Shown here: positions 29,941 to 43,399 of the stretch, in pieces
How the letters are laid out: every line of letters starts with the position of its first letter
Position numbering within the stretch: the first letter of the stretch is position 1
From: Terriglobia bacterium
GTDB taxonomy: Bacteria; Acidobacteriota; Terriglobia; Terriglobales; Acidobacteriaceae
Assembly: GCA_020072585.1 (NCBI GenBank)
Contig: JAIQGL010000038.1
Coordinates: 1-54,736 of the forward strand
Direction of reading: 5' to 3'
Length of the DNA stretch: 54,736 nucleotides
The notes under the pieces: model-generated
The model's input: the letters and a program-made list of their open reading frames with translations, nothing else
Told to the model about the DNA's origin: nothing
Database searches by the model: none
Program-made: the position numbers and the translations under genes

Positions 29941-30282
29941 ATGACCGACCAAGCGCAGATTCTTCCCGGTACTCTCGATCTTCTTATTCTGAAGGCAGTT
30001 TCTCTCGGTCCGCTCCATGGCTATGGGGTTCTTCTGCGCATAGGGCAGATCTCCGGGCAGATGCTGTTGATCGAACAGGGAGCGCTCTATCCCGCATTGT
30101 TCCGCCTGGTGCGGCAGGGATTTCTGAAAGCAAGCTGGGGCACGTCAGAGAACAATCGTCGCGCCAAGTTTTACGAACTTACCTCCGCGGGTCGCAAGCG
30201 TCTGCGCGAGGAAGTGAAGGGGTGGAACCGGCTTGCCGAAGCCATTGCTTCTGCGCTTGCCGCTCAACCGGAGGAAACATGA
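29941..30282 (+). CDS. PadR-family transcriptional regulator
   Basis: The 113-residue protein begins ILPGTLDLLILKAVSLGPLHGYGV, the usual PadR N-terminus with a winged helix, and continues with EQGALYPALFRLVRQGF and a short C-terminal helix. AGGGGG is the ribosome binding site. Such regulators in Acidobacteriota are often followed by a permease gene; here a GGAGG and an ATGA-overlapping start remain at its 3' end but no partner gene follows. Operator copies lie upstream. Confidence 0.93.
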   Translation: MTDQAQILPGTLDLLILKAVSLGPLHGYGVLLRIGQISGQMLLIEQGALYPALFRLVRQGFLKASWGTSENNRRAKFYELTSAGRKRLREEVKGWNRLAEAIASALAAQPEET

Positions 30283-32003: not shown

Positions 32004-33621
32004 TCAGGCACTCCCTGCTGGAGGCTTGGCAATCATGATCGCCGCAGCGCGTTCCGCCATGGCGGCAATTGTGTGCACCGGATTCAGTCCGATCGGCGTC
32101 GCTACCGTGGACCCATCGATCACGTACAGGTTCTCGTAGCCAAATACCTGCCCTCTGTGGTCCACCACACCTGTCTGCGCGTTATTGCCCATATTGCATC
32201 CGCCAAGCGAATGCGGCGAGACCAAGGTGTCTTTCCACCACGGAAATACCAGGGCGCGGCCGCCGGTCTTCTCTGAGAGTTCTACATGGGTTTTGATCTG
32301 CGCCTCAAAAACCGGCAGGGACTTGGTAATGTCCCAATGCAGATGCAACCGCTTGCGCCCGAAGAAATACCAGGGACGTTTTAGCTGGTATTCACCATTG
32401 CCGGCATCGATTCCATTGGCGAACCAGGGCATAAGGTGCGGCAGGGGATTTTCCTTCTGGACCTCTTTTTGCAGCCATGCAATCAGACGCTGAAAAGGAT
32501 GATGGCTGGCAGCAGGCGCATTCACGGCTTTTGCCGACTCCAGATGTTTGAAAAGGAGATTGGGCATTCCACCATCTTCAATCCCGAACGCCTGCCCATC
32601 ACGGCTGCGGTCACCAAAATCAATAGCGCTGTTGATGTTCGGGCCCACGTATGGATAAAGCATTCTGTCTTTGTAAAAAGCAGTGGTCAGAAGGTCTCCG
32701 TTGCTACTCCAGTTTTTTCCCAGGAACCTGCTGACATTGGGCAGGGTCTTGTACTGGTCACGGCAGCGCAACAGCAACTCGGTGGAACCCATAGAGCCCG
32801 CGGCCAGAATCACGCGGCTTGCGTCTTCACTGCCGCCAATGCGCCGGCCATTCTCAAGCCTGTCAAAGTAAACGCGGTAGCCGGCACCCTGGCTCTCAAT
32901 CCGGTTCACGATGTGGAGCGGACGCAATTCCGCACCTTTTTTCTGCGCAATGAAAAGGTAGTTCACGTCCAGAGTATTCTTGGCCTTGACCGGGCAGCCA
33001 AAATCGCATATTCCGGCGTGAATACATGTGCCTTGTCTGGCGCCATACTTGTTCACATGCTCAACGGAATCTGCTTCCGTGGGAGGGTTCGCAGGATCAA
33101 GTTTCAGGTCTTTGCGGAAAGCAATCGCCTGCGGCACCGTGGCAAAACGGTCTCCCGCTCCGATTTTTTCCGCTCCCTCTTTGATCAGGCGGACGCGTGG
33201 GTTCCACTGGCCGGGCGGCAGTACCTGAAGTTCCAGCATGTCCGCGACCTTGTTGTAGTAAGGCTGCAACTCGGCTTTGGTGATCTCCTGTGGCCACGGG
33301 GCAGTAAAAATACTGGCTGGAGCTTCACGGAATATGCTGGCATAGATCAATGAGCCGCCGCCCACGCCCGCTCCCGCAACAATGGTCATGGTGCCGAAGT
33401 TCCTGACATCGGTCCATCCGTTGAAAAGCTCAGGACAATTCTGGTCCCAGATCCAGGGGTCGGTAACGCGCTGCGGATAAGCCGTGACGCCGGGGCCGGC
33501 CTTGGGCTCCCAGCGCCTGCCACGCTCCAGAAATGAGTACCTTCATCCCTGCTTCCGCCAGGCGGCACCCAGTAATTGCGCCGCCAAAGCCGCTGCCGAT
33601 GACGATCACATCAAATCCCAT
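32004..33621 (-). pseudogene. Second GMC oxidoreductase, frameshifted
   Basis: An ATG at 33621 with GGAGG upstream opens a frame with GSGFGGAITGCRLAEAG. After KVLI the frame fails; the correct continuation LERGRRWEPKAGPGV appears one base further on. Position 33531-33533 reads AAA on the plus strand where AA would restore it. Downstream all GMC features are intact through to 32004, including GVGGGSLIYAS, a cysteine-rich loop and PHSLGGCNM. The total length is 1618 bases, one more than a multiple of three. It is either a genuine one-base mutation or a base-call error in a homopolymer; everything else looks functional. Confidence 0.8.
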
Positions 33622-34185: not shown

Positions 34186-34587
34186 TCAGCGTGCAGTGTT
34201 CTGTCGCCGTCGCTGCTCACTTGCTTTCATGATTTCGCTCATGTCCGCCGCTGGCCGTATCTCGAAAATGCTGCCGTACTTCAGGGCCGGGTGCTGCGCC
34301 ATGAGCTGCTGAGCATGATTCATGTCCCGCGCCTCAAGGACGAGAATGCCGCCGAGTTGTTCCTTGGTCTCCGCAAAGGGACCGTCCGTCGTTGCGACCT
34401 TGCCGTTCTTCCAGTACAGGGTCAAGGCGGTTTCCGGAGGCTGAAGCGCTTCTCCACCAGCCCAATGCCCGTTGGCGCGAAGATGGTCATCATACTCAAA
34501 GCATGTGTCGAACATGGCGCGTTGCTCGTCCTCGGTCATGGCTTCATGTTTGCCTTTGTCGTAGTATCCCAAACAGATGTATTTCAT
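34186..34587 (-). CDS. YCII/DGPF-domain protein
   Basis: The 133-residue protein starts at MKYICLGYYD with GAGGAG upstream; a longer frame is possible but less likely. It contains TTDGPFAETKEQLGG, the hallmark of the DGPF (YCII-related) family. Function of the family is unknown, but members are consistently encoded next to ECF42 sigma factors. It is the last gene of the operon. Confidence 0.88.
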   Translation of the reverse strand: MKYICLGYYDKGKHEAMTEDEQRAMFDTCFEYDDHLRANGHWAGGEALQPPETALTLYWKNGKVATTDGPFAETKEQLGGILVLEARDMNHAQQLMAQHPALKYGSIFEIRPAADMSEIMKASEQRRRQNTAR

Positions 34588-34652: not shown

Positions 34653-35207
34653 TCACTGTTTCAGGTAACGAAGCGCAACAGATCCTGATTTAAAAGTCTT
34701 TGACTCAACAAGTTTTAATTGCAATTTCTCCGGCAGGCTGACACCCTCCAGCAACCGTCTCCCTTCCCCTGCAATGATTGGCCCAACCACAAAACGATAT
34801 TCATCTACCAGGCCAAGCTCTATGAGTTGTGAAGGAATATCAACACCACCGACTAAAATATTTTTACCTTGTTCCTGTTTCAATTTGAGTATTTCGTCGC
34901 GCATATTCGAACGAACGATTCTCGTGCTCTTGTCTTCAGCGCTGTTCAAGGATCGCGAGAAAACAATTTTGTTGAGGGCGACAAATGCTTTAGCAAATTC
35001 GGTTTCTGCTTTTGTCTCAGACTGGTTTTTGAGGACTTCAGGCCAATAGGGAACCATCAATTGATAGGTTTTACGCCCAAAGACCTGCAGGTCAGCCTCT
35101 CGCGTGAGGTTAGTAAAATATTCAAGTTGTTCTTCATCGACAAATTGTTTGGTGTGGTCGACACAGCCATCCAGCGTAATGTTGATTGCGAAGATCAGCT
35201 TTCTCAT
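34653..35207 (-). CDS. Dihydrofolate reductase-fold protein (RibD C-terminal type)
   Basis: The 184-residue protein has the RibD C-terminal / DHFR-like fold, with INITLDGCVDH near the start, FGRKTYQLMVPYWPEV in the first third, and GGVDIPSQLIELGLVDEYRF later. It may be a small NADPH-dependent reductase; substrate unknown. GGAGA precedes its ATG. It lies in the middle of the YCII operon with 25 bases to the upstream gene, so it is likely regulated with it. Confidence 0.85.
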   Translation of the reverse strand: MRKLIFAINITLDGCVDHTKQFVDEEQLEYFTNLTREADLQVFGRKTYQLMVPYWPEVLKNQSETKAETEFAKAFVALNKIVFSRSLNSAEDKSTRIVRSNMRDEILKLKQEQGKNILVGGVDIPSQLIELGLVDEYRFVVGPIIAGEGRRLLEGVSLPEKLQLKLVESKTFKSGSVALRYLKQ

Positions 35208-35232: not shown

Positions 35233-35586
35233 TTATTTCGGCCGGATTCTCAAGAACGCTCGCACCTCGACAGGAACCCGGCAGGCGACGACGGCTTTGC
35301 GTGCCCACGCGAGCGCCTCATCCATGTCAGCGGCTTCGAGTATCCAGAAGCCGCCCACGTGCTCCTTGGTCTCAAGGTACGGCCCGTCGGTGATGATCAC
35401 CTCTCCACCAGGCTGCTTCCGCAATGATTTCGCCTTGGCTGCCGGTTCCAGGCCGCCAGCAAAGAACCTGGCGCCGGCGGCATCCATCTCTTGGTTGAGC
35501 GCGCCAATATCGCGAATCATCGCTTCGCCTTCCAGAGACGGGTCGTAGTTGTCGGGGTGTTGAATTGCTACCAGATATTGCGGCAT
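35233..35586 (-). CDS. YCII/DGPF-domain protein
   Basis: The 117-residue protein shares MPQYLVA and ITDGPYLETKEHVGGFWILEAADMDEA with the upstream paralogue, indicating a tandem duplication. Family and context as for the other YCII genes; it has no separate promoter visible in the 39-base gap. Confidence 0.9.
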   Translation of the reverse strand: MPQYLVAIQHPDNYDPSLEGEAMIRDIGALNQEMDAAGARFFAGGLEPAAKAKSLRKQPGGEVIITDGPYLETKEHVGGFWILEAADMDEALAWARKAVVACRVPVEVRAFLRIRPK

Positions 35587-35625
35587 GTCTTCTCCTCTGT
35601 TCGTTCAAGTCCGCCGCTGGAGTTG

Positions 35626-35970
35626 CTAGTCGCTTGGCATGAAAAAGATTTCTCGCACCTCGACCTGCCCCCGGGTGGCGTCGACGCCTTTGCGCGCCCA
35701 TGCCACCGCCTCGTCCATGTCAGCGCATTCCAATATATAAAGACCGCCGATGTGTTCCTTGGTCTCAAGGTACGGCCCATCTGTGATGACGGCTTTGCCA
35801 TCGGTCTTCGCCCGCAGCGACTTTGCGGCCCCAAGGCCGCAAGCCATTTTCAGGACACCGGCGGCCTCCATCTCTTTGTTGAACGCGTGGATCTTGCGGC
35901 CCGTTGCTTCGTCCACTTGGGACGGGTCGAAGTCGTCGGGGATGTAACCAGCAACCAAATATTGCGGCAT
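35626..35970 (-). CDS. YCII/DGPF-domain protein, first of operon
   Basis: The 114-residue protein begins MPQYLVAGYIPDDFDPS and contains TDGPYLETKEHIGG. AGGAGA lies before the ATG at 35970; a longer frame reaching the promoter region is unlikely to be used. It is about 70 bases downstream of an ECF42-type promoter and should be its first target. Confidence 0.9.
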   Translation of the reverse strand: MPQYLVAGYIPDDFDPSQVDEATGRKIHAFNKEMEAAGVLKMACGLGAAKSLRAKTDGKAVITDGPYLETKEHIGGLYILECADMDEAVAWARKGVDATRGQVEVREIFFMPSD

Positions 35971-36048
35971 GTCTTCTCCTGTAAAGGTCTTCGAGTCAGC
36001 AGCACAGCCTTGTGCGCTGGGTCTTTCATATCGACCGTTCACCTATAG

Positions 36049-36073
36049 TCGTCGCCCAGGGAAAAAATCGACA
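36049..36073 (-). promoter_or_regulatory. ECF42-type promoter of the YCII operon
   Basis: Read on the minus strand, TGTCGA (36073-36068) is followed after 16 bases by CGA(C) (36051 leftwards). The ECF42 group is reported to use TGTCGA near -35 and CGA near -10. The site lies just after the truncated sigma-gene tail and before the YCII operon. The same arrangement recurs at 38889-38913. Confidence 0.75.
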
Positions 36074-36094
36074 GCCGAGGCAAACTTTTTTATT

Positions 36095-36267
36095 TCAATT
36101 CCCCGAGTTTTCTTTCAATTCCTCGAGCCGCGCGAGAAAACGGCGCTCCGGTTCCTGCCGATCTTTGCCAGTTAAAACCAGGGCGAGCGCCTTCTCATAG
36201 GAAGCACGGGCCTCCGGAATCCGCCCTAATCTGCGGCATAGGTCCGCACGTGCAGAGTGCGCGAGGG
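36095..36267 (-). pseudogene. 3' tail of an ECF42 sigma gene
   Basis: The minus strand reads HSARADLCRRLGRIPEARAS then YEKALALV and, after an insertion relative to the full gene, RRFLARLEELKENSGN and stop. This matches the last 50 or so residues of the sigma factor at 38929-40224 and also the bases after the stop, including the promoter. Homology begins abruptly at 36267, 21 bases from the end of the permease gene. It is the remains of a paralogous or displaced sigma gene. Confidence 0.85.
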
Positions 36268-36287
36268 GACCCCGGGCCGCGGCGATC

Positions 36288-38765
36288 TCACTCCGACCGC
36301 AGCGCCTGCGTCACATCTACGCGTGATGCGCGCACCGCCGGCAGCATGGAGGCGACGATGGCAACGATCATCAAGACCAGGGCCGAGGCCACAACCGGCA
36401 AAGCGCCGGGCATCTTGAGATCTCCAAAGTATCCGGCTCCTATCCGCGCCAGGGCGAACCCCAGCGCCGCTCCGGCGAAGACGCCGAGGATGGCCATGAG
36501 CGCGCCTTGGGCGATCACATCCTGCAGGATTTGCTGCGGCTGCGATCCCAGCGCCAGCCGGATGCCGAACTCCCGTGTGCGCGCGCTGACCGAGAATGCC
36601 AGAACGCCGGCGACGCCGATCACAGCGATCGCCAGAGCCACTGCGGCGAATACGCCAAACACCACGGAGTTCAGGCGATCCGGAGTCAGCACTTCGGTGC
36701 GGACATCCTTCAGCGTTGATGGGTTCTCGACCGGCTGATCAGTGGAGAGCTCGCGGATGATGCGCGTGGCGGGAGAAACCAGAGCGTAGGGGTCCTGGCT
36801 TGTGTGGATGAAAAGGTCGGCGCCAAACATGGGGCCGTCTTCAAACGTGTTATAGACGGTGACTGTAGGCCGGGGAATGATGTGCTCGTCGTCAATATCC
36901 GCAACCACTCCAATAATCCGGTGCGGCCCCTTGATCCGGATCTTTTCCACATCGCTTCCAGGAAGAAACTCCAGCACCGGGTCCGACCAGTAGATATGGT
37001 GGCCCATGGCATCGCCTTTGGGATACATGCTTTGGGCGAGCGACTGGCTCACCATGACGACCGGCTCTGAGCTTTTCGTATCACGGGCATCGAAATCGCG
37101 TCCCGCAAGAATGGGAACGCCCAGGGCGGCGAAGAACCCCGGAGAGATGGTGCGCCAACGGGCGCGGGGATCGTCTTTGCCAGCCTGATGGGGATGGCCG
37201 TCCCCAGCGAACTGCAGGCTGAAACTCTGGCCGTCGCGCCAGGGAATGACGTTGGCGAAGGCGGTCGAGTTGACGCCGGGAAGGGCGTTGATGCGCCGCA
37301 TGGATTCCTTGTAGAACTCAATGACCTGTTCCGGCGTTTTTCCATAGGACATCGCGGGGACACTGATGGAGAGAACATGCTCCGTGTCCAGGCCGGTCTG
37401 CGCGCGGCGCAGGGCCATGAGCGTCGTAATCAGGCTGCTGGCTCCGGTGAGCAGCACGAAAGACAGAGCGATCTGCGTCACCGCGAAGATGCGCTGGCGG
37501 CGGGATGTGCTGCCGGTCATGCGTGAGCCACCGGTGGCCAGGCTCAGCCCCTGAGCGCTGTCCCCTGAGGGCAGATGCGGGACGAATGCCAGAACCACGG
37601 AGGCGATGATGGCCAGTCCCGCTCCGACCCACAACATGCTGGTATCCACGGTCAGGTCCAGGGCGCGCACCGAGAAGCGAGAGGCGTAGCGCGCCAGAAT
37701 TGCGACCAGCGGTTGCGCGCTGATCACGCCCAGCGCGGCTCCAATTCCGCAGACGATCAGGCCTTCGGCCAGCAGCATCCGGCGCAATGCGCCCCGGCTT
37801 GCGCCCAGCGCGGTGCGGATCGCAAGTTCGTTTTGCCGGCGGACGGTCCGCGCCAGAATCAGGTTGGCGACATTGCTACAGGCGATGATGAACAGCAACC
37901 CCGACGCCGCCAGCAGCACCAACAGAATGGTGCGGGCGCCGGACGTGACTTCATCGCGAAATGGGGTGACCGCAATCTGGAAGTTCGCCTGTTTCGAATA
38001 GGCTTCGGGATACTTCTGGGTCATGGCCGAGTAGGCCGTGCGCAATTCCGCCCGGGCCTGTTCGATCGTGGCTCCGGGGCCCAGCCGCCCGAACATTTCG
38101 GTCATGCGATGCACGCGTCCCGTCACCATGGTTGCGGAAAGATGATGCGGGCTGATCACCACGTTGCCGATGATCTCCGTATCCTGCGGATACGGCACAC
38201 AGGGTTCAAGCACGCCGATGATGGTCGCCGTCCGGTCGCCAATGCTGCCCAGGCGGATTTGTTTCCCGATGACGCTGCGATCGCGATTGAGGGCGCTGTT
38301 CCAGTAACGATACGTGAGGACCACGACGCCGGCGGCGTTCGGACCATCATCTTGCGGTCCAATCAGGCGTCCCAGCACGGGATGAAGGCCCATCACGTCG
38401 AAAAACGTTCCGTTGACGATGCCACCCCGAATGGTGCGCGGTTCGCCCAGGCCTACCATGGTGAAACCCATCGCGGAGAAGTCGCCGAACGCACCTACGC
38501 TTTTGACGCTGGACTTCAGGTCTTCGATTTCGGGCACGGAAAACGTGGTGTTGTCGGTGTCAATTCCCGGCGCGCTCTGGCGGACATAGATCAGCCTGGC
38601 TTCGTCCCGGTTCACCAGAGGTTTGAGCAGAATGCCGCGCACCAACGAGAAGATCGCAGCATTGGCGCCGATGGCCAGCGCCAAGGTAAGGACCACGGCA
38701 ACGGCCAGGCCGGGAGTCCGAAACAACGAATAAACCGCAACTTTGAGATCGCGAACGAATGCCAT
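36288..38765 (-). CDS. ADOP-type MacB/FtsX permease
   Basis: The 825-residue protein has the Acidobacterial duplicated orphan permease layout: an N-terminal helix with FRTPGLAVAVVLTLALAIGANAA, a large periplasmic MacB-like core, an FtsX domain (around ARTILLVLLAASGLLFIIACSNVANLILAR), and a second core plus FtsX domain ending RASRVDVTQALRSE. These permeases lack their own ATPase and their substrates are unknown. Usually a PadR gene is adjacent; here it is instead preceded by an ECF42-type promoter and a hairpin, next to a sigma gene. Confidence 0.9.
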   Translation of the reverse strand: MAFVRDLKVAVYSLFRTPGLAVAVVLTLALAIGANAAIFSLVRGILLKPLVNRDEARLIYVRQSAPGIDTDNTTFSVPEIEDLKSSVKSVGAFGDFSAMGFTMVGLGEPRTIRGGIVNGTFFDVMGLHPVLGRLIGPQDDGPNAAGVVVLTYRYWNSALNRDRSVIGKQIRLGSIGDRTATIIGVLEPCVPYPQDTEIIGNVVISPHHLSATMVTGRVHRMTEMFGRLGPGATIEQARAELRTAYSAMTQKYPEAYSKQANFQIAVTPFRDEVTSGARTILLVLLAASGLLFIIACSNVANLILARTVRRQNELAIRTALGASRGALRRMLLAEGLIVCGIGAALGVISAQPLVAILARYASRFSVRALDLTVDTSMLWVGAGLAIIASVVLAFVPHLPSGDSAQGLSLATGGSRMTGSTSRRQRIFAVTQIALSFVLLTGASSLITTLMALRRAQTGLDTEHVLSISVPAMSYGKTPEQVIEFYKESMRRINALPGVNSTAFANVIPWRDGQSFSLQFAGDGHPHQAGKDDPRARWRTISPGFFAALGVPILAGRDFDARDTKSSEPVVMVSQSLAQSMYPKGDAMGHHIYWSDPVLEFLPGSDVEKIRIKGPHRIIGVVADIDDEHIIPRPTVTVYNTFEDGPMFGADLFIHTSQDPYALVSPATRIIRELSTDQPVENPSTLKDVRTEVLTPDRLNSVVFGVFAAVALAIAVIGVAGVLAFSVSARTREFGIRLALGSQPQQILQDVIAQGALMAILGVFAGAALGFALARIGAGYFGDLKMPGALPVVASALVLMIVAIVASMLPAVRASRVDVTQALRSE

Positions 38766-38841
38766 GTTCGGTTAGACCTCCATCCAAAAAAGTATGCTAC
38801 CACCCTGGCCGCGAATGGCGAACGCTCGAGTGCTGCAGGGG

Positions 38842-38867
38842 AAAATCGGGGACCTGTCCCCGGTTTT
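38842..38867 (-). terminator. Leader hairpin between promoter and permease gene
   Basis: AAAATCGGGGAC at 38842-38853 and GTCCCCGGTTTT at 38856-38867 pair over 12 positions with one G-T mismatch and a two-base loop. On the minus strand the stem ends in ATTTT. It lies in the 5' leader, about 40 bases after the promoter and 75 before the start codon. It could attenuate transcription, or be a common REP-like word; both are possible. Confidence 0.5.
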
Positions 38868-38888
38868 CCTGGGTCGTTCATCCTATAG

Positions 38889-38913
38889 TCGTCGCGGAGA
38901 GAAAAAATCGACA
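38889..38913 (-). promoter_or_regulatory. ECF42-type promoter upstream of the permease
   Basis: On the minus strand TGTCGA (38913-38908), a 16-base spacer and CGAC (ending at about 38888) are identical in layout to the promoter at 36049-36073; the flanking CTATAGG(A/G)TGAACG is also shared. It begins 16 bases after the sigma gene stop and faces the permease, about 120 bases from its start. Confidence 0.7.
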
Positions 38914-38928
38914 GCCGAGGCGAACTTT

Positions 38929-40224
38929 TTATTTCAATTCCTCGAGGCGCCTAGCCAGAAAACGGCGGTCCGATGCCTGGGGCGCCAGGGCCAGCGCCTT
39001 CTCGTACGAAGCACGGGCCTCCGGAAGCCGCCCTAATCTGCGGCACAGTTCCGCACGGGCAGAGTGCGCGAGGTGATAGTGGGAAAGCTGCTCGCGCGCC
39101 AGCAAGTCATCGATGAGACGAAGCCCCTGCTCCGGACCTTCGCACTCGGCAATGGCCACGGCGCGATTCAGTTCCACAACCGGGGATGGCAGAATGCGAA
39201 GCAATCGGTCATAAAGCAGCATAATCTCGCGCCAGTCCGTGGATGCCACGGAGGAACTCCCGGCGTGAACGGCCGCAATGGCCGCCTGCAGAGTGTAGGC
39301 GCCGAAACGGCGCGATTGAAGAGAGGCTTCAGTAAGCGCGAGGCCTTCGGCGATCTGGTCTTTGTTCCATAAGGAGCGGTCCTGCTGCTCCAGCAGGATC
39401 AAATCTCCCTCGGGTGAGATTCTGGCGGCCCGGCGCGACTCCTGCAGCAGCATAAGCCCCAGCAGGCCCATCACCTCAGGTTCCTGAATCCGGCCAAGCT
39501 GGAGCAGGTCTTTATTAAGTAAATCGAGCAGAAGCCTGCTCAGGCGGATTGCCTCGCGGCTGAGTTCGGCGCCCGTTGTTTCGGCCGAATACCCTTCGTT
39601 GAAGATCAGATACACGACCTGGAGGACAGCTCCCAACCGGGCCGGTAATTCCTGCGACGCTGGCACCTGGTAAGGAATTGCCTTATCGCGGATGACAGCC
39701 TTCGCGCGCACGATGCGTTGGGCGAGCGTTGCCGGCGTAACCAGAAATGCCCGGGCAATCTCCTCCGTGGTCAGGCCGCAGACTTCGCGCAGGGTGAGCG
39801 CAACCTGTCCTTCCGGAGGCAGCGCGGGATGGCAGCACGTAAAGATCAGACGGAGGCGATCGTCTTCGATCTCCTCGTCTTCGATCTCCTCGACACCGGG
39901 GGAAACTTCGTTGATGCGCGCTTCATTCATGTGCGCTTCGGTGTAGAGCGCAAGATCTCTCTGTGTTGCGTCGAACTGCGCGCGCCGGCGCATCCCATCG
40001 ATGGCCTTGAAGCGTGCCGTTGAAATCAGCCAGGGGCGCGGCTTGTCCGGAATACCAGTCTGGGGCCAGGACTCCAGAGCAGCGGCGAATGCCTCATGCA
40101 TGGCCTCTTCAGCCAGATCCAGATCTCCGAGGAGGCGCACGAGCGTCGCCAGGACCCGGCCCGATTCCGATCGGTAAAGAGCCTCAATGGTCCTGCGGAG
40201 TTGTTCGGGCACAGGCGGCAGCAT
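38929..40224 (-). CDS. ECF42-like RNA polymerase sigma factor
   Basis: The 431-residue protein has a sigma region 2 (GDLDLAEEAMHEAFAAALESWPQTGIPDKPRPWL) at about 33-66, a region 4 (GLTTEEIARAFLVTPATLAQRIVRAKAVIR) near 150-178, and a long C-terminal extension with a TPR-like part ending EARASYEKALALA. This DUF6596-like extension marks the ECF42 group, which is linked with DGPF/YCII genes as here. The extension is thought to control activity in place of an anti-sigma factor. A TGTCGA lies at 40252-40257 upstream but lacks the -10 CGA at the right distance, so autoregulation is uncertain. Confidence 0.9.
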   Translation of the reverse strand: MLPPVPEQLRRTIEALYRSESGRVLATLVRLLGDLDLAEEAMHEAFAAALESWPQTGIPDKPRPWLISTARFKAIDGMRRRAQFDATQRDLALYTEAHMNEARINEVSPGVEEIEDEEIEDDRLRLIFTCCHPALPPEGQVALTLREVCGLTTEEIARAFLVTPATLAQRIVRAKAVIRDKAIPYQVPASQELPARLGAVLQVVYLIFNEGYSAETTGAELSREAIRLSRLLLDLLNKDLLQLGRIQEPEVMGLLGLMLLQESRRAARISPEGDLILLEQQDRSLWNKDQIAEGLALTEASLQSRRFGAYTLQAAIAAVHAGSSSVASTDWREIMLLYDRLLRILPSPVVELNRAVAIAECEGPEQGLRLIDDLLAREQLSHYHLAHSARAELCRRLGRLPEARASYEKALALAPQASDRRFLARRLEELK

Positions 40225-41583
40225 CTACGCCAAACTAGCAAACGGAGCGGCTCGACACAACTGCGCTCGGGCTTCCCCTACCCACAATTCAGTCGCCCGC
40301 CTCTGCGCTGATCGAGGGTTTGCAAAGGGACAACAGCATAGGTCCCGCGTAAACGCCCTTATCACTATCAACTCCCGTACCGTCAGTGACTCGGAAGTTA
40401 TTCGCCCTAGTGCCGTTTGCAGTGAGTTTTCGAACTTTTCCTGAGCAGCAGAAAGCAAGCAACTTACGATCTGATCTCCTGAAAAACCAGCAAAGGGTGC
40501 GCTCGTAACCCTGTGAATCAAAAGAGAAAAATTCTGGCGGAGAGAGTGGGATTCTCTAAAGCTGCACATTCTAAGGCCAGCATTATCAACAGACAACCAT
40601 TAACCGTAGTCCTGACCGACATTTATCTTTTATCACATCTGTAACACGAGCCACAAATTCAACTCTGATTCGCCATCGTGACCTGGTTTACGGTATGGAT
40701 GGTATGGATATTTGCGATCAATAAGCTCTTACAGTGGGCAACCCCGGGGATTCATGCAAGCCGGACAGCTGCAATAACCCAGCGGCCACACTCTGCCGTT
40801 CCAGGCGTCTGCCTCATTGTCACAGCCCCCCAACAGCAACTTTTGCCCATGCTCCATCGAAGACCACGATAATTTGCAGACCGATTGCTCTATACCGGGA
40901 TGGTGACTCTGAACGCGCGCCTCTGCCGTAACAGAACCAGCCACAGGCTTGAGATCCACCCATCTTCATTAGCTGAGGCGCGCCCCCCAACCTTCTACAA
41001 GGATATGAGGCGTAGAAGAATCGAGACCGGGTGCAAGAGAGCCTTTGAAGCATGCTGCAGAGATTTTTTGTCACTTGTACTGTTAAGGCTGTATTTTCCG
41101 ATGCGGTCCAATTGTATGACAATATCTCCGATCGTCGAGTGATCTCCTTTCCAACGGCGGCAGGGTTTCGCTTTGTCCGGCGAGACCCGCTACCCTTGGT
41201 GCCGCATAGGAAAGGCTCGCAATGAAAAGGTCTGAGTCACACGCGCCGTTCTCATCCGAGTGCGCCGATTTCCATTGCTAAGAGTCAAATCAGGACAACA
41301 GAAGGGCGTCAAACGGGATGAGAACCACACCGAGGAGTAAGTAAACCCGGCAATGGGCAAATGAAGCTGTTTCTTAGTATGTCTGTGTGCGGTCTCGACT
41401 CGTTCCGGTAACCCACATGTCGACCGAGCATTCACCGTTGTTACTGCCGCAAACACACTGCTCAAGCAGACGAGAGATGGAGAAATAACCAAGAGCAACC
41501 CGCTGAGTAAGACCGTTCATCAGGGTAAGAGGTAATAGGCAAAGAAGCGCTTGTTTGGGTTGATTGCCGGGAGGCGCCACGAT
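40225..41583. other. Long intergenic stretch without a recognisable gene
   Basis: Over 1.3 kb no frame shows family motifs, a good ribosome binding site or coupling. Small minus-strand frames are low in confidence. The stretch contains a tRNA-Ser-like 3' end at 40535-40554 and marks the change from the G+C-rich left part to the more A+T-rich accessory right part of the window. It probably holds decayed sequence. Confidence 0.5.
40535..40554 (-). repeat. tRNA-Ser 3'-end-like 20-mer, possible att remnant
   Basis: On the minus strand these bases read GAATCCCACTCTCTCCGCCA, which matches the T-arm and acceptor end of bacterial tRNA-Ser genes. No complete tRNA is present around it. Such partial copies arise when an integrative element recombines into a tRNA gene. 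A weaker relative (TGGCGGAGAG) lies at 33935-33944. Confidence 0.45.
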
Positions 41584-42138: not shown

Positions 42139-43399
42139 TTGAATCAGTTGAATTTAATGACGGTCGCTTGTAATCTTCCTTCTTCCCATGTTCGACATTT
42201 TCTTCCTCTTGCTTTCGTCTCTGCGAAGCTGTCTGAGTACCCGTGCGGCCTTGCAAGCTGAGATCCTGGCGCTGCGCCATCAGGCTCTTGTTCTGCAGCG
42301 CGCCACACGCGGCCGTCGTCTTCGCTTCAAAGTGGCAGATCGAGTGTTTTGGGTCTGGTTATCTCATCTATGGAAGAACTGGCGGCTGCCTCTGAGGATC
42401 ATAAGGCCAGAGACCGTCATTGCTTGGAATCGCAAAGGATTCCGACTGTACTGGACTTGGAAGAGTCGAGCACGGAATGGCCGCCCACCGATCACTCGCG
42501 ACGTATGCACTCTGATCCGAAAGATGAGCCTGGCCAATCCTCGCTGGGGCGCACCGAGAATTCATGGTGAACTGCTTAAGCTCGGCATTGACATCGGCGA
42601 AACCACGGTGGCCAAGTATATGGTCCGTCCCCGTAGGCCGTCCTCGCAAACATGGAAGACATTTTCTGAACAACCACATGCAGGACTTGGTCTCAACAGA
42701 CTTCTTCGTTGTTCCAACAGCAACATTCCGGCTGCTGTTCGTTTTTATTGTGCTCTCGCATGAGCGCCGGCGAGTCTTGCATTTTGCCGTGACAGCTCAC
42801 CCAACCGCTGAGTGGACAGCGCAACAACTCATTGACGCTTTCCCTTGGGACACCACGCCTCAGTATTTGCTTCGTGACCGAGACGGAAGCTATGGAAGAG
42901 CGTTTGAACAAACGACTAGAGCGATGGAGATTCAAGAAGTCCTCACGGCTCCGCGCTCGCCTTGGCAGAATGCCTACATCGAGAGATTGATTGGTTCTAT
43001 CCGTCGCGATTGTCTCGATCATGTGCTCGTCTTCGATGAGCGCGGTCTCCGGCGCATTCTGAAATCTTACTTTGATTATTACGAGAGATCACGAACTCAC
43101 CTGGGCTTGGAAAAGGATGCTCCCATCCCTCGCACCGTCCAACTGCCTTCGCTTGGAAGAGTGATCGAAATACCGCAGGTCGGGGGCTTACACCATCGCT
43201 ACGAGCGACGGGCTGCGTAAGAAGCCCTGATCAATGGCCGCAACCGGGATACGATCCCGCACTCGTTCGGCTCCGAGCATCCGCAGAGCGATCATGTTTC
43301 ATTGTGGCGCGCGAATCACTCAAACTCGGATTAAACTTGTGTTCCAATTTTGGGCGTCTCATAGCCAAATCGGCCCGGATGGAGTTTTCGATAGGGACA
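42113..43399 (+). mobile_element. IS481-like insertion sequence
   Basis: Terminal inverted repeats TGTCCCTAGTGAAAACGCC (42113-42131) and, at the right end in reverse complement, TGTCCCTATCGAAAACTCC (43399-43381) match at 16 of 19 positions. ACCC flanks both ends (42109-42112 and 43400-43403), a possible four-base target duplication. The element is 1287 bases long with one transposase gene and ends with TGT, as in IS481-type elements. Insertion is within the VWFA gene. Confidence 0.85.
42188..43220 (+). pseudogene. Integrase-core transposase, frameshifted
   Basis: The first frame gives an N-terminal part with GRPPITRDVCTLIRKMSLAN and the HTH-like WGAPRIHGELLKLGIDI, then breaks at KTF. The rest continues in the next frame as LNNHMQDLVSTDFFVV. 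TTTT at 42662-42665 would be TTT in an intact gene. The DDE residues lie in STDFF, LLRDRDGSYG and YIERLIGSIRRD. Since the shift is well inside the catalytic core and not at a typical slip motif, the gene is probably inactive, unless the extra T is a sequencing error. Confidence 0.8.

Follow-up and report, generated by a model that had tools for sequence, protein, structure and literature searches.

Can an ECF42 sigma factor govern a membrane permease? ECF42 is a widespread sigma group, and its described targets are small soluble proteins. The question is raised by 54,736 nt of DNA (the window, that is, the whole stretch analyzed) from a Terriglobia bacterium of the Acidobacteriaceae (GenBank assembly GCA_020072585.1, contig JAIQGL010000038.1, positions 1 to 54,736), the genome of which comprises 6.9 Mb. 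Read along the minus strand, it presents an ECF42-type sigma factor gene, a promoter, an ADOP-family permease gene, the tail of a sigma gene, a second promoter, and genes for YCII, YCII, RibD_C and YCII proteins. From sequence comparison with 399 genomes of the class, we estimate at about three in four the probability that the permease belongs to the regulon of the ECF42 sigma factor whose gene precedes it, and the ECF42-ADOP link would be best read as recurrent but facultative.

The Two Promoters and the Genes They Face

Both promoter sites lie on the minus strand and read TGTCGA-N16-CGACTATAGG, followed by TATAGG. The permease-side site, TGTCGATTTTTTCTCTCCGCGACGACTATAGG, runs from 38913 to 38888, and the YCII-side site, TGTCGATTTTTTCCCTGGGCGACGACTATAGG, from 36073 to 36048. 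The first-pass annotation of this DNA had described two minus-strand TGTCGA-N16-CGAC sites, and both are present where it placed them; the likeness that it saw in their downstream strings is also real, but the A/G change reported there is in fact a 1-nt indel (CTATAGG-TGAACG against CTATAGGATGAACG). A position weight matrix (PWM) was trained on 21 distinct sigma-adjacent promoters of relatives (training scores 23.1–34.1); both window sites score 33.4, inside the training range, and are nearly letter-identical to the promoters situated directly behind close sigma relatives. Across the 6.9-Mb genome, the fuller form TGTCGAWT-N14/15-CGACTAT has just two copies, which are these two sites, and its reversed control has none.

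The adjacent sigma gene (38929–40224, minus strand) encodes a 431-aa protein with Pfam regions 2 (Sigma70_r2, PF04542) and 4 (Sigma70_r4_2, PF08281) and, in its C-terminal extension, DUF6596 (residues 196–301) and TPR_2 (385–416), all of them above the cut-off. Relatives 39–87% identical to it are found in 202 of the 399 genomes (E ≤ 1e-60), and the window's genome holds two more full-length ones (51 and 46% identical), i.e., three paralogues in total. No anti-sigma gene appeared among the genes given to Pfam, the DNA upstream of 40224 having been viewed only as a list of open reading frames (ORFs). The operon behind the YCII-side site, also on the minus strand, comprises YCII-domain protein 1 (113 aa, 35626–35967; PF03795, E 2.4e-16), YCII-domain protein 2 (117 aa, 35233–35586; PF03795, E 4.1e-11), a RibD_C or dihydrofolate-reductase-like protein (184 aa, 34653–35207; PF01872, E 2.1e-18) and YCII-domain protein 3 (133 aa, 34186–34587; PF03795, E 2.5e-19). 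Three YCII genes thus stand downstream of the ECF42-type sigma gene, and the first-pass identification of an ECF42-like sigma gene next to YCII genes is borne out by Pfam domains and homology.

The permease (36288–38765, minus strand; 825 aa) is a duplicated MacB/FtsX-like protein and a full-length ADOP: it matches TIGR03434 with 685.5 bits (cut-off 622.3) over residues 4–825, covering positions 2–803 of the 803 in the profile, in agreement with its first assignment as a MacB/FtsX ADOP permease. MacB_PCD and FtsX domains are recognized by Pfam, and its nearest solved relatives are MacB structures (E 3.7e-12); Pfam detected no ATPase domain in it, nor in the other five operon proteins that were submitted. 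A recent origin from a paralogue of the same genome was considered and rejected, as the next best of the 34 ADOP matches in that genome (E ≤ 1e-50) is 32% identical. Genes 55–74% identical to the window permease (E ≤ 1e-280) are carried by 85 of the 399 genomes, and it is this subfamily that was followed across the class.

Recurrence of the Link Across the Class

Counted from the permease, the association was sought around 98 other ADOP matches from the class, each retrieved together with as much as 7 kb of flanking DNA per side. A TGTCGA-N15..17-CG(A/T)C site lies within 300 bp upstream of 18 of them, where 0.32 would be expected from its density elsewhere in the same loci and the opposite strand yields one; with other forms of the −10 element, the count is 13 against 0.66 expected (CGA alone) and 19 against 1.0 (CG(A/T)). 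The recruitment idea therefore survived a test that it would have failed, had the second site shown no conservation in relatives. A PWM score of at least 9 is reached by 12 of 97 homologues against 0.4 expected, which is a weak test. The window's genome has 33 ADOP paralogues, and no CGAC or CGTC site was found in the 1 kb ahead of any; 19 other ADOPs from the retrieved loci likewise lack one.

Gene neighborhood gives a second measure: 10 of the 98 ADOPs follow ECF42 sigma genes, YCII genes or both on their own strand. A whole sigma gene adjoins four of these ten (genomes G295, G168, G031 and G113), only sigma fragments are found at four (G223, G177, G219, G142), and only YCII at two (G327, G304); among the 18 homologues with an upstream site, G295 is the sole one that also shows gene linkage. 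At locus L299 (G379:C160), the ADOP in an ECF42 cluster matches as three overlapping pieces, suggesting frame damage.

Counted from the promoter, TGTCGAWT-N14/15-CGACTAT occurs at 73 sites in 51 of the 399 genomes, against one for the reversed control. The first gene within about 420 bp behind these sites encodes a YCII protein in 58 cases, an ADOP in four (the window, G295, G406 and G322) and a RibD_C-like protein in one, while ten have no match to a window protein. At 17 of the 73 sites, in 13 of the 51 genomes, the 4.5 kb that follow on that strand contain an ADOP of the subfamily. Together with the 18 sites and the 10 linked genes among the 98 homologues, this count supports the first-pass proposal that the permease was recruited into an ECF42 regulon, and does so over a wider range than had been proposed. 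In G363 (locus L293) and G286 (locus L386), an unrelated ADOP, 27% identical, stands downstream of ECF42-type sites and YCII; at L386, a PadR gene lies in between, on the way to this ADOP of another subfamily. Pfam recognizes one RibD_C and two BNR/sortilin-like proteins among the ten unmatched cases. The BNR/sortilin-like repeat proteins are the first genes behind extended sites at L347:49-1239 (minus strand, G067) and L358:1379-2563 (plus strand, G324); coming from two genomes of different families, they are possible further members of ECF42 regulons.

Comparison of these genomes shows the subfamily to recur in several separate sub-lineages, either within ECF42/YCII clusters or alone behind putative ECF42-type promoters. 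Promoter or linkage is present in 28 of 97 rows of a FastTree phylogeny of 99 ADOPs and requires at least 17 changes on it; the trait is therefore scattered. Comparison also shows that genomes holding this ADOP usually hold a predicted ECF42 sigma gene (E ≤ 1e-60): 72 of 85, against 130 of the 314 others, or 28 of 31 against 45 of 104 when counted by genus (genus codes copied by hand). The sigma gene accompanies an associated ADOP in each of 27 genomes, and a non-associated one in 44 of 57.

The usual partner ascribed to ADOPs by the first-pass annotation, PadR, does not fit this picture well. A PadR gene precedes only 2 of 19 other ADOPs, a small sample, and none was found within 1.5 kb upstream of the 95 genes of the subfamily with enough sequence; upstream of the window permease there are a sigma tail and a promoter, and no adjacent PadR gene. 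The notion that PadR was here replaced by ECF42 is weakened, PadR being rare ahead of other ADOPs too. The window does contain an acidobacterial PadR gene (TIGR03433, 133.9 bits) at 29941–30282 on the plus strand, about 8 kb from the ADOP.

Sigma-Gene Tails as Possible Carriers of the Promoter

How did two such sites come to flank one permease? They lie at the tips of an imperfect direct repeat (36036–36269 against 38875–39076) that contains the 3′ end of the sigma gene. Each promoter comes after an ECF42 sigma-gene 3′ end, one intact and the other a headless remnant (36113–36268, minus strand) that corresponds to the last ~47 codons (query residues 384–431; 83% identity, E 2e-12). Both being part of this sigma-tail repeat, the sites go back to a single ancestral site, which rules out the candidate view of two independent matches. 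The target promoter of the window begins about 15 bp past the sigma stop codon, and in relatives with a promoter it starts within 60 bp of the stop (21 distinct sites, 40 fetched sigma loci); therefore, any copy of a sigma 3′ end would carry a promoter.

Similar remnants are found elsewhere. Scored with a hidden Markov model (HMM) of the tail, headless tails stand ahead of extended sites in the window (80.2), G344 (47.6), G142 (44.5), G177 and G219 (37.8) and G223 (18.7), the best control reaching 3.0; G245 (72.4) and G108 (31.5) match the HMM in part, and a whole sigma gene is possible there. At the DNA level, the sequence upstream of the solo-ADOP site of G406 resembles the sigma 3′ end of its own genome (no simple shuffle out of 500 scores as high), as do those ahead of the ADOP and YCII sites of G295 (0 of 500 each, the YCII match being just 18 nt) and of the second site of G031 (0 of 500). 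Neither the ADOP site of G322 nor that of G343 is preceded by such a likeness, and none was found ahead of a second G168 site.

Compared as DNA, the remnant and the window's own sigma tail are mutually nearest (87%; eight relatives reach 84% at most); compared as protein, the tails of eight relatives score above the window's own sigma tail against the remnant. The simple story of the second site as a recent tandem copy of the first is weakened, and the arrangement may stem from either a duplication within the lineage or a fusion of two ECF42 units. With sigma 3′ ends ahead of both promoters, the present order would therefore have arisen by duplication or fusion of a sigma-tail/promoter unit. 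Our best reading of these tails is that the ECF42-ADOP link has been spread in part through copied sigma-gene tails and the promoter that they bring along. More generally, and at slightly less than even odds, ECF42 regulons may grow when duplicated sigma 3′ ends act as portable promoter cassettes and capture genes, here a permease, the headless tails being the record of such events. In a Blastocatellia metagenome-assembled genome (L042:8183-8961), an intact ECF42 gene is followed, about 1 kb on, by two extra sigma-like pieces that look like a decaying tandem copy.

Weighing the Alternatives

Several observations speak against ECF42 control of the permease. The leader between promoter and permease contains a palindrome, CGGGGACAGGTCCCCG (38847–38862, minus strand; sole exact copy in the genome), predicted to form a hairpin. 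Over the window's genome as a whole, TGTCGA-N15..17-CGAC and -CGTC show no excess, with 26 and 30 sites where the reversed patterns give 55 and 56. Neither promoter nor linkage is present in 71 of the 98 homologues (two of these with too little upstream sequence), and three of the five nearest relatives (G398, G286, G014) lack both. Of the 97 homologues scored, only G295 and G406 have sites within the training range of the PWM; the other ADOP sites are mostly looser, mainly N17 forms, since they score 14.7 or below. The co-occurrence of sigma gene and ADOP is, moreover, confounded by ancestry.

These points lend some weight to other explanations. Chance matches to a short motif are conceivable for TGTCGA-N16-CGA, present twice in the window, as shuffled windows contain 0.46 on average and 11 of 100 reach two; the extended consensus, with its 73 sites against one reversed in 399 genomes and this genome's only two copies both in the window, largely rules such an origin out and leaves it a negligible probability. 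The view of the arrangement as a by-product deserves more attention: the ADOP would have landed by chance between sigma gene and YCII operon, with a copied promoter that has no role in its expression. The permease-side site is indeed part of the imperfect sigma-tail repeat, most close sigma relatives show the plain order sigma, promoter, YCII with no ADOP in between (only 5 of 40 fetched sigma loci have a member of the subfamily within 6 kb downstream), and the three near relatives just mentioned are without such a site. Yet 26 of 84 other ADOP genomes, from separate sub-lineages, have the subfamily in a comparable setting (by the CG(A/T)C pattern or by linkage), most of the promoter cases have no neighboring sigma gene, and the scan that starts from the promoter arrives at the ADOP in 13 genomes, so that a by-product seems unlikely. 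It is very unlikely, in our judgment, that genuine sites serve some other ECF sigma factor, or that the leader hairpin stops the transcripts, leaving the permease outside ECF42 control. Spacing and −10 form do vary (N16 CGACTATA, N17 CGACGT, N17 CGTCGT), genomes hold several ECF42 paralogues (three in the present one), and the hairpin is there in the leader; against this, the window sites are almost identical, letter by letter, to the promoters directly behind close sigma relatives, and the hairpin is not among the terminator-like elements listed.

A Possible Mechanism and Its Significance

If the permease is indeed under ECF42 control, the sigma factor, once its TPR extension permits, would direct RNA polymerase to both sites, most likely giving two transcription units, with the site at 38913 serving the permease and that at 36073 the YCII operon. 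The small YCII and RibD_C proteins and the permease might then serve one response, in which the YCII and reductase-like proteins could modify some harmful small molecule and the MacB-like permease could move that molecule or sense membrane stress, an ATPase, if needed, perhaps being supplied from elsewhere. A MacB-like permease side by side with YCII and RibD_C-like proteins would suit a role in dealing with either a harmful small molecule or envelope stress.

With a membrane permease recurring among its putative targets, the ECF42 response would have a side that concerns the envelope or transport, and a gene is at hand whose loss could yield a phenotype. Genomes of Acidobacteria carry dozens of ADOP genes, and one subfamily of them becomes testable once it is tied to a defined sigma factor. 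The sigma-tail/promoter copies, in turn, suggest a concrete route by which a sigma factor may gain targets.

No Rfam family matched in 35500–40700. Elsewhere in the window, by eye, the second of two neighboring GMC-type oxidoreductase genes (32004–33620, minus strand) seems to be frame-shifted with respect to its N-terminal part, and integrase-type transposase-like ORFs occupy two overlapping frames at 42188–43220 on the plus strand (no family search made).

Comparison With Known Systems

ECF42 sigma factors are defined by a C-terminal extension of ~200 residues with TPR (as given in the part of PMC8999054 drawn on here). The window sigma factor resembles the ECF42 members RpoE10 of Sinorhizobium meliloti, ECF-10 of P. 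putida and Sven_0747 of S. venezuelae in having regions 2 and 4 in a protein of ~400 residues, a TPR extension and a YCII neighbor. The mapped promoters of RpoE10 read TGTCGG-N17-CGTC (PMC6180224, Table 1), a form that fits, as far as this table goes, the N17 CG(A/T)C sites ahead of solo ADOPs found here; the window sites likewise share with the known ECF42 promoters of the portions cited a TGTCG(A/G) −35 element and a CG(A/T)C −10 element, separated by ~16–17 nt. The difference lies in the target, since YCII-type, small glyoxalase-like and hypothetical proteins, and no permease, are mentioned in those portions, whereas the window includes a permease. No literature linking ECF42 or ECF sigma factors with ADOP or FtsX permeases was found in the open-licence text of PubMed Central. 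Sigma group and permease family are each known, and the link between them appears not to have been described so far.

The permease itself is a full TIGR03434 member, like those of the PadR-ADOP pairs of Acidobacteria (TIGR03433/TIGR03434); unlike them, its subfamily has no PadR gene within 1.5 kb upstream (95 of 95), and some of its members have an ECF42-type promoter instead. With regard to the FtsX-fold permeases, the C-terminal half of the window protein aligns with the solved MacB, LolC and YtrF, and it differs from MacB, LolCDE and YtrF in being devoid of an ATPase domain and in carrying two permease halves per chain.

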